Below are positions 8,730 through 11,079 of a DNA stretch of 64,000 bases, one piece after another. Where the stretch lies: the NCBI GenBank assembly GCA_019636445.1, contig JAHBXO010000002.1, forward strand, positions 1 through 64,000. The letters run 5' to 3'. The notes under the pieces are model-generated. The model saw nothing but the letters and a program-made list of their open reading frames with translations, had not been told where the DNA came from and ran no database searches. The DNA comes from Gemmataceae bacterium (lineage in GTDB: Bacteria > Planctomycetota > Planctomycetia > Gemmatales > Gemmataceae). The position numbers and the translations under genes were made by a program. The stretch's first letter is position 1. Every line of letters starts with the position of its first letter.

Positions 8730-9026
8730 TCAGACGCGAGACTTCCACACATCCGGATTTCGCGAGGTGTGGAAGACCGAGACGATAACGATCTCGGTCG
8801 GTTCAACCAGATAGAGCACGATGTACGGGAACCGTTTTACGACGGCCTTCCTCACATCTCCGTAGACTTTGGCATGCAGGAGTGGGTTGGCTGAGATACG
8901 GGCGATAACGGACTCAACTTCCGCCACGAAATCGTCGCCCAATCCAGTCCGCTGTTGCTCGTACCAGTCGGCCGCATCTTCGTATTCCGAGAGGGCTTCG
9001 ACCCGAAATCGAACGGTTCGGCTCAT
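8730..9026 (-). CDS. ParE/RelE-type toxin
   Basis: 98 residues from ATG 9026. The fold signature of the RelE/ParE superfamily is visible: an N-terminal helix pair (YEDAADWYEQQ, FVAEVESVIARI), then RKAVVKRFPYIVLYLVEPTEIVIVSVFHTSRNP, written here in pieces as KRFPYIVLY and VFHTSRNP. ParE members poison gyrase, and RelE members cut ribosome-bound mRNA. The sequence alone does not decide which. The start overlaps the antitoxin stop by 4 bp, so translation is coupled. Confidence 0.85.
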   Translation of the reverse strand: MSRTVRFRVEALSEYEDAADWYEQQRTGLGDDFVAEVESVIARISANPLLHAKVYGDVRKAVVKRFPYIVLYLVEPTEIVIVSVFHTSRNPDVWKSRV

Positions 9027-9256
9027 CGTTTCTGCAACCGTTCGCGGACTCGACGTTGAACTTCTTCCCACGGGATCGCAGAATCCGGATTCGCCCGGTG
9101 CGCAGCAATCCTACGATCGAGTTCCTCGCACAACTCTGGCGGAAGAGGGGACGCTTCGACTTCCTCGGAGACGCTGTCCCAAATCTCGCCGATGAGCTGC
9201 ATTCGCTCGGCGAAGGAAAACCGGGCAATTTGCAGTTGTTCGAATAGTGCCGGCAT
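9023..9256 (-). CDS. Antitoxin, addiction-module component family (Unstab_antitox type)
   Basis: 77 residues from ATG 9256, preceded by the strong ribosome site AAGGAGAT. It has the features of the putative addiction-module antitoxins paired with ParE: an N-terminal LS-like segment, an SFAERMQLIGEIWDSV helix, and a C-terminal PWEEVQRRVRERLQ toxin-binding helix. It lies upstream of, and overlaps, the toxin, which is the standard order giving antitoxin excess. An in-frame extension to 9388 lacks coding character. Confidence 0.85.
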   Translation of the reverse strand: MPALFEQLQIARFSFAERMQLIGEIWDSVSEEVEASPLPPELCEELDRRIAAHRANPDSAIPWEEVQRRVRERLQKR

Positions 9257-9411: not shown

Positions 9412-11079
9412 ATGCCGACGAAGATCGACATGGCCAAGTTCGCCAAGTTCTGCAAGGACACCGGTTTCATCTTCCAGTCCAGCGAAATCTACGGCGGCAT
9501 CAACGGCTTCTGGGACTACGGCCCGCTCGGCGTCGAGTTGAAGAAGAACATCAAGGACGCCTGGTGGCAGGACATGGTGCGCAATCCGCCACCCGGCCCC
9601 GACGGCCAGGAGATCCGCATGGTCGGGCTGGACTGCTCGATCATCATGAACCCGCAAGTGTGGGTGGCGAGCGGGCACGCTGCAGGCTTCGCGGACCCGA
9701 TGGTGGATTGTTTAAAGTGCAAAAAGCGGTTTCGCGGAGATAAGTTATACTTTATGCGTTGGCCTGCGGTGACAGGTCTAACACTCGGTGCTGTAGAGGC
9801 AGATAATAAGACTGATGCAACTCCATTACTCGAAAAGAAGCTGCGCAAGTTGCCTAAACAACAATCTGCTTCTCTTTTGGCTCAGTTCGAACGAGGCGAA
9901 TACAACACATTATCAGCTCTAGAGATCTTCCAATCCGATCCAAATAATCCCAAACAGGAACTTGATGCACCTAGTTCGGGGATGTGCCCGATGGATGGCT
10001 GTGGGGGTGACTTGACGGCACCACGTTCCTTCAATTTGATGTTTCAGACATATGTAGGAGCATTACAAACAGAAGATAACACAGCTTTTCTCCGTCCCGA
10101 AACAGCCCAAGGCATCTTCGTCAACTATCGCAACGTCCTGAACAGTACGCGGCTGAAGTTGCCGTTCGGGATCGCGCAGGTCGGGAAGGCGTTCCGCAAC
10201 GAGATTAACCCGCGGAACTTCATCTTCCGTTCGCGCGAATTCGAGCAGATGGAGATCGAGTTCTTCTGCCATCCAAACGAGAGCATGAAGTGGTACCAGT
10301 ACTGGCGCGACTTGCGCAAGAACTGGTACAGCACGCTCGGCATCAAGAGCGACAACCTACGGCCGCGCGAGCAGGGCCAGGAGGAACTCGCCCACTACAG
10401 CATCGGCACGACGGACATCGAATACATGTTCCCGTTCAGCGACGAGCCGCAGGAATTGGAAGGCGTCGCGCACCGGGGGGACTATGACCTCACGCAGCAC
10501 GCCAAGCACAGCGGCAAGGCGGACGACCTCGCGTATTTCGATGAGGAACTCTGGAACAACGACTCGCAGACGATGGCGACGCGATCCTTCAAGGAATGGC
10601 TGAAGACCAACCCGACGGCGGAGCAGATCGCGAAGTACCGCTTCGTTCCGCACGTCGTCGAACCGAGCGCCGGGGCGGACCGATTCACGCTCGCAGTGCT
10701 GACGGAAGCGTACACGGAAGAGGAACTGACCGACGCGAAGGGCCAGAAGGACACGCGCATCGTCATGCGGTTCCACCCCCGTCTTGCACCGATCAAGTGT
10801 GCCGTGTTCCCGCTCGTCAACAAGGACGGCATGCCGGAGAAGGCGATGAAGCTGTACCGTGAGTTGAAGGCTCACTTCAACGTGGCCTACGACGACAAGG
10901 GCGCCGTCGGCCGCCGCTACCGGCGGCAGGACGAGGTCGGCACGCCGTTTTGTGTGACGATTGATGGGGATACGATTAAAGATGATACCGTCACGATTCG
11001 GGATCGCGATTCGATGCAACAGCGGCGAATTCCGATGGCGGAAGTAAAAACGGAGATATTGAAGGTTTTGATGGGATGA
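9412..11079 (+). CDS. glyS: Glycyl-tRNA synthetase, single-chain (alpha2) class II type
   Basis: 555 residues from ATG 9412 (MPTKIDMAKF), preceded by GGAGA. It charges tRNA-Gly in the cytoplasm. It has the class II motif 2 (VGKAFRNEINPRNFIFRSRE), the motif 3 GADR segment near residue 420 and a C-terminal anticodon-binding domain. Two cysteine pairs (CLKCKK; MCPMDGCGG) form a probable zinc ribbon in the insertion between motif 1 and motif 2. The insertion and flanks at about 9705-10112 are markedly low in GC with different codon choice, while both ends match the host. The reading frame is intact, so the enzyme is presumably functional. A terminator hairpin follows at 11100. Confidence 0.95.
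   Translation: MPTKIDMAKFAKFCKDTGFIFQSSEIYGGINGFWDYGPLGVELKKNIKDAWWQDMVRNPPPGPDGQEIRMVGLDCSIIMNPQVWVASGHAAGFADPMVDCLKCKKRFRGDKLYFMRWPAVTGLTLGAVEADNKTDATPLLEKKLRKLPKQQSASLLAQFERGEYNTLSALEIFQSDPNNPKQELDAPSSGMCPMDGCGGDLTAPRSFNLMFQTYVGALQTEDNTAFLRPETAQGIFVNYRNVLNSTRLKLPFGIAQVGKAFRNEINPRNFIFRSREFEQMEIEFFCHPNESMKWYQYWRDLRKNWYSTLGIKSDNLRPREQGQEELAHYSIGTTDIEYMFPFSDEPQELEGVAHRGDYDLTQHAKHSGKADDLAYFDEELWNNDSQTMATRSFKEWLKTNPTAEQIAKYRFVPHVVEPSAGADRFTLAVLTEAYTEEELTDAKGQKDTRIVMRFHPRLAPIKCAVFPLVNKDGMPEKAMKLYRELKAHFNVAYDDKGAVGRRYRRQDEVGTPFCVTIDGDTIKDDTVTIRDRDSMQQRRIPMAEVKTEILKVLMG
9705..10112 (+). other. Low-GC patch inside glyS (probable recombined segment)
   Basis: Hand counts give 28 G/C in 60 bases at 9721-9780, 23 in 60 at 9901-9960 and 22 in 60 at 10021-10080. 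The flanking glyS sequence is clearly GC-rich. Codons switch to TTA, AAA, GAT, ACA and AAT, which are rare elsewhere in the gene, and both edges are abrupt. The frame is preserved. The pattern suggests an in-frame gene conversion from a low-GC relative of the same gene. Confidence 0.75.

Follow-up and report, generated by a model that had tools for sequence, protein, structure and literature searches.

A 2025 paper on mycobacterial glycyl-tRNA synthetase (GlyRS) describes, in its passages on the insertion domain, two groups of this domain, one of them with a zinc site, and there the insert between the zinc knuckles is likely located at the site of the tRNA acceptor arm, above the ATP (PMC12208437). 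The locus described here concerns the same enzyme and the same place, and in both cases groups of one genus have different insertion domains. The mycobacterial groups are distinguished among about a dozen sequences, in passages that contain no transfer or composition analysis (PMC12208437), whereas the set of planctomycete and other GlyRS sequences compared here has seven groups and nine orphan inserts, with at least 36 changes of insert type and with traces in the base composition. The present case is of the same kind as the mycobacterial two-group pattern and far more extreme; a description of such a pattern in planctomycetes was not found in the literature searched.

The gene also resembles the segmentally variable genes, in which a variable stretch of at least 70 residues lies between conserved parts, and among whose examples tRNA synthetases (ProRS) are mentioned (PMC387263); here the variable core has 76 residues and the block around it 135 codons. 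The passages on composition in that study give no significant general difference in G+C between variable and conserved parts (PMC387263), whereas in the present gene the two parts differ strongly in G+C, a difference that is linked to replacement. A further parallel is the replacement of NRPS adenylation domains, where recombination repeatedly swaps one domain in a conserved gene (PMC2174460). Swaps in NRPS alter a product, whereas GlyRS, an essential enzyme, should catalyse an unchanged reaction. Inteins and other in-frame selfish inserts likewise add in-frame sequence to a conserved gene, but the GlyRS insert is an ordinary domain, of which every GlyRS compared has one form or another. There is no sign of an intein, as the insert has no intein-type Pfam match.

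The window is a stretch of 64,000 nucleotides from a Gemmataceae bacterium, and its glyS gene is present as one copy in this genome (G000). A Pfam search of the product finds the tRNA-synt_2b and HGTP_anticodon domains, which is the class II core plus HGTP anticodon domain of the α2-type class II GlyRS. The best PDB matches are also α2 GlyRS, the nearest solved structures being those of the mycobacterial and Thermus enzymes. The closest relative is a genome of the same genus (G053, locus L002), referred to as the sister. The features of the gene are as follows.

9412 to 11079, + strand: glyS, α2-type class II glycyl-tRNA synthetase, 555 codons plus stop, assigned from Pfam and structure matches
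9412 to 9705, + strand: left flank, codons 1 to 98, GC3 0.93
9706 to 10110, + strand: low-GC block, probably replaced, codons 99 to 233, GC3 0.39, comprising the entire insertion domain and both conserved shoulders
9706 to 9747, + strand: left shoulder with the first putative zinc knuckle (Cys100, Cys103), a knuckle that is absent from the sister
9748 to 9975, + strand: variable core of the domain, of type T3 ("EADN"), with the fold predicted as β-β-α-α-β-α
9976 to 10110, + strand: right shoulder with the second putative zinc knuckle (Cys192, Cys197) and FNLM...RPETAQ, GC3 0.44, unlike that of the sister
10111 to 10947, + strand: right flank from motif 2 to the anticodon domain, GC3 0.89, tracking the sequence of the sister
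10948 to 11079, + strand: second low-GC3 tract, at the C-terminus, GC3 0.51 over 43 codons

The initial annotation, which was made from the nucleotide sequence, had placed a low-GC block at about 9705 to 10112, with an intact frame, spanning the zinc ribbon and stopping before motif 2. A change-point scan of GC3 finds its best block at codons 99 to 233 of the 555, within two bases of those edges, with a GC3 of 0.39 versus 0.93 on the left and 0.84 on the right, and with a log-likelihood ratio of 53.1 versus a maximum of 11.7 among 200 codon shuffles. The reading frame is open across the whole gene, and the observation is borne out. The overall GC of the block is 0.457 versus 0.622 (left) and 0.593 (right), its fourfold sites have a G+C of 33% (21 of 64) versus 89% in the flanks, and codons with a frequency below 0.6% in a sample of the genome make up 44 of its 135 codons versus 21 of the 420 flanking ones. 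The second tract, at 10948 to 11079, was missed in that annotation; its GC3 of 0.51 compares with 0.80 in the sister and 0.86 in Limnoglobus roseus (locus L032). Transformation often leaves broken tracts behind, and the second tract may belong to the same event as the main block. An AT-rich choice of codons could also have been selected for slowing translation while the inserted domain folds, and in several lineages the low GC3 indeed goes no further than the domain with its shoulders; with many relatives encoding the same domain, even of the same type, at a GC3 of 0.77 to 0.96, and with the second tract lying at the C-terminus, this explanation has a very small probability.

Comparison with the sister localizes the difference to the same part of the gene. 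The protein identity is 96% in the left flank, 94% in the right flank and 34% in the insert, and the DNA identity is 91 to 97% in the first five windows of 15 codons, drops to 21 to 66% within the insert and rises again from codon 226 onwards. The insert of the window has a four-cysteine ribbon (Cys100, Cys103, Cys192, Cys197), which probably binds zinc, and the insert of the sister is without such a ribbon. The same picture is obtained with L. roseus, a further relative within the genus, where the identities to the window are 99% (left flank), 87% (right flank) and 32% (insert). The gene order around glyS is conserved in the sister genome, and among 24 orthologue pairs (two of which point to one gene) only GlyRS has an internal divergent block, of 160 columns with 38% identity between 40-column flanks with 100% identity. 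Among 14 orthologue pairs with L. roseus it is again GlyRS alone that has an internal block, with 24% identity. A ParE-like toxin and Unstab_antitox pair (Pfam), to which no match was found in the fetched G053 and L. roseus regions, lies directly upstream of glyS on the opposite strand (8730 to 9256). An assembly chimera might be thought of for a genome in 98 contigs; the frame is intact, and swaps of this kind also occur in the L. roseus genome, which is complete, and between few-contig genomes, which makes an artefact of this kind scarcely credible.

The block and the flanks have different histories. The separate phylogenies proposed in the initial annotation were run, and they give a different grouping for the block. 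On the flank tree the window and the sister are sisters (98*), and the flanks reject a grouping of the window with the sequences that share its insert type (p 3e-85). The insert, whose tree contains long branches, rejects the grouping of the window with the sister (p 0.0022; p 0.0093 with the core alone), and does not reject its grouping with the other T3 inserts (p 0.14). The right shoulder alone (29 residues) does not reject window plus sister (p 0.054). For the Limnoglobus/Fimbriiglobus group as a whole, which was picked after the data had been seen, it gives p 6e-5. Conflicting trees of domain and flanks, as found here, are what characterizes a horizontally replaced domain. The proposal of transfer from elsewhere was right in kind, since the block and flank trees conflict. 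Its "uncommon" does not hold, as the flank tree requires at least 36 changes of insert type, and "gene conversion" in the strict sense is not supported, as glyS is single and no second copy of the core was found in the genome. Conversion from a second genomic copy is likewise ruled out by the genome search, with one weak other match only (E 0.16) in an assembly rated 93% complete. A single ancient transfer is ruled out by other members of the same genus, which carry other inserts.

The survey of relatives shows how often such changes have occurred. GlyRS was located in 86 of the 95 family genomes searched, and 80 loci were taken from public genome contigs; 119 distinct relatives were compared (116 rows in the table, window included), and later 150 relatives plus the window, many of the rows being metagenome bins. 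Three loci without an anchor (L140 to L142) were left out of the grouping of insert cores, in which the core of L025 is represented by 18 residues of a 140-residue T2 insert. The partial genes L089 and L100 were left out of the identity tables and kept in the composition comparison, in which several rows have L089 as their nearest relative by flanks. The 117 insert cores form the seven groups and nine orphans at E < 0.001. Shuffled cores gave no match under E 0.01, and the insert types are therefore not due to chance. With 97 planctomycete and other GlyRS rows on the flank tree, the at least 36 changes compare with a minimum of 13, the number required for 14 states with a single origin each. 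Near-identical flanks enclose different inserts in L017/L044, L075/L078/L079, L022/L136 and L024/L132, and sister pairs with wholly different inserts have a flank dS of 0.22 to 0.95. Such swaps are also found in isolate or few-contig genomes, for example L. roseus and G011/G027. For 107 sequences the nearest relative by flanks has an identity of at least 85%, and in 40 of these the insert has no detectable homology to that of this relative. The insert is apparently stable in the Rhodopirellula group, in Opitutales, in Bacteroidota and, within the same class, in one family whose genomes have a G+C near 50%, and turnover is therefore a trait of particular lineages, chiefly Gemmataceae and Phycisphaerales.

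It is possible that the insert, being weakly constrained, diverges fast in place until it is past recognition, and that it drifts to AT, either because selection is absent or because GC-biased conversion is absent where the partners mismatch. The lengths and sequences of the inserts do vary widely, and in the Limnoglobus/Fimbriiglobus group the insert is lower in GC in every member but L004, irrespective of the insert type. Within a type, the core is gapless in 16 of the 18 independent pairs, with a dN/dS of at most 0.28 wherever it could be computed (dS being saturated in two of the 16). Same-type inserts are thus mostly under purifying selection and change by replacement rather than by steady drift; the remaining two pairs, with a saturated core dN near 0.6, look like swaps within a type. 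The insert is therefore a domain that is conserved in the short term and jumps in the long term. The same insert types also recur in distant lineages, and the low-GC tract of the window reaches beyond the variable core into both conserved shoulders. Moreover, the fourfold-site G+C of the block (0.33) is below the G+C of the intergenic spacers (0.61; p 4e-6, with crude gene calling), and relaxed selection alone is therefore insufficient for explaining the AT-richness. With these observations, divergence in place appears improbable. The initial annotation had counted the presence of the same block in all close relatives as evidence against transfer; close relatives are indeed low in GC at the same place, but the sequence that they have there is different and looks non-homologous.

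The 145-residue insert of type T2, noted in L015, L020, L021, L027, L030, L044, L051, L077 and L113, is unlike the other types in that its protein is more conserved than the flanks in many cross-lineage pairs, even between classes. The DNA of the cores is not more conserved than that of the flanks in nine of the 12 pairs examined (three of the 12 being T3 pairs), and recent T2 transfers across lineages are therefore not supported by the DNA identity. AlphaFold predicts the same plan for the inserts of the window (T3) and the sister (T0), with two strands, a helix, a second helix in some cases, a strand and a helix, and with low confidence at the shoulders of the window model. This predicted similarity fits with divergent alleles of one domain. 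Comparison with PDB chains gave mainly whole-enzyme matches, with little information on the insert. Of seven inserts searched against Pfam, six gave no match and the seventh a weak one below the cut-off, and of four searched against PHROGs one gave weak matches; a known domain inside the insert is thereby ruled out.

The shared fold plan of T0 and T3, resembling old alleles of one domain, would also agree with ancient coexisting alleles or duplicate glyS copies of which the descendants kept different ones, with no exchange between lineages. This is very unlikely: the gene is single in this genome, the second matches per genome, among those listed, are pieces of one gene that is broken by a contig end or at its insert, and the polymorphism would have to persist through the at least 36 changes.

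Replaced inserts also tend to differ from stable ones in composition. Among rows with a flank GC3 of at least 0.75, which are not independent of each other, the median change in GC3 from flanks to insert is -0.24 in replaced inserts (n = 37) versus -0.02 in stable ones (n = 28; p 9e-7); L004 has a replaced insert that is nevertheless GC-rich (GC3 0.86). The right edge of the low-GC tract lies between 33 codons before and 20 codons after RPETAQ in 22 of the 24 rows scanned and differs by lineage, the edges of L044 and L017 being further out in weak scans. The GC3 edges are in or beside conserved stretches, edges found from composition being accurate only to several codons. The simplest reading is a donor with AT-rich DNA, and the low-GC donor suggested initially is plausible. 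A close donor was not found in samples of 95 family, 397 class and 392 phylum genomes, viral contigs, phages and plasmids, and neither was one for two orphan inserts; replacement by recombination does not depend on the donor being known. The nearest inserts to that of the window have about 42 to 45% protein identity and belong to GC-rich Gemmataceae. A phage or plasmid donor is rejected for the collections searched, as sequences from phages and plasmids gave no matches other than as GlyRS, mostly at the conserved right edge, and viral contigs gave nothing.

In our reading, the block is the insertion domain between motifs 1 and 2 of GlyRS, and it has probably been exchanged as a whole through recombination with a diverged allele of this domain from another lineage; the overall pattern is read as repeated replacement, by recombination, of the insertion domain at the acceptor arm. 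Foreign glyS DNA would recombine at the conserved stretches beside the domain (around ASGHxxGFxDPM and FNLM...RPETAQGIF), which would swap the domain in frame, and the AT-richness would be a trace of the donor that is still wearing off. In mycobacterial GlyRS the domain is on that side of the active site where the tRNA acceptor arm lies, and different versions of it can therefore work with one catalytic core. The recurrence at one site suggests selection for novelty. Neutral interchangeability alone is insufficient, because the neighbouring genes show nothing similar, and selection for novelty would account for that. It is conceivable, although we consider it doubtful, that GlyRS behaves like an antigen, with a putative docking site for a toxin, a phage protein or an antibiotic at the acceptor-arm entrance that is escaped by repeated import of the domain, in a frequency-dependent polymorphism fed from an AT-rich, yet unsampled gene pool. 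A literature search found no paper on a GlyRS-binding agent of such a kind.

Aminoacyl-tRNA synthetases are held to be slow housekeeping genes, and here one domain is repeatedly exchanged between nearly identical enzymes. This provides a series of naturally swapped domains with which the role of the GlyRS insertion domain can be studied, it is a warning that this part of glyS is unsuitable for phylogeny, and it points to an agent that selects on an essential enzyme of translation. Replacements may be datable by their AT-rich traces, which may also lead to the donor pool.

When ORFs of the same genome are ranked by their internal drop in GC3, the glyS block is first of 284 in 464 kb and fourth of 783 in 1.24 Mb (about 21% of the assembly). 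It is extreme and not unique, because three of the 783 have a stronger drop: an LRR-like protein and a secreted protein, both names being guesses, and an AbiEii-like ATPase (Pfam). The AAA_21/AbiEii-like ATPase gene (G000:C1:159452-160813; L231 from 19452 plus the next piece) has a GC3 of 0.34 over 162 codons, below that of the glyS block, and is a candidate for another mosaic gene. Strong internal GC3 drops are also present in the long ORFs at G000:C1:193957-197058 and C1:60944-64045 (secreted protein and LRR-like, both names tentative).
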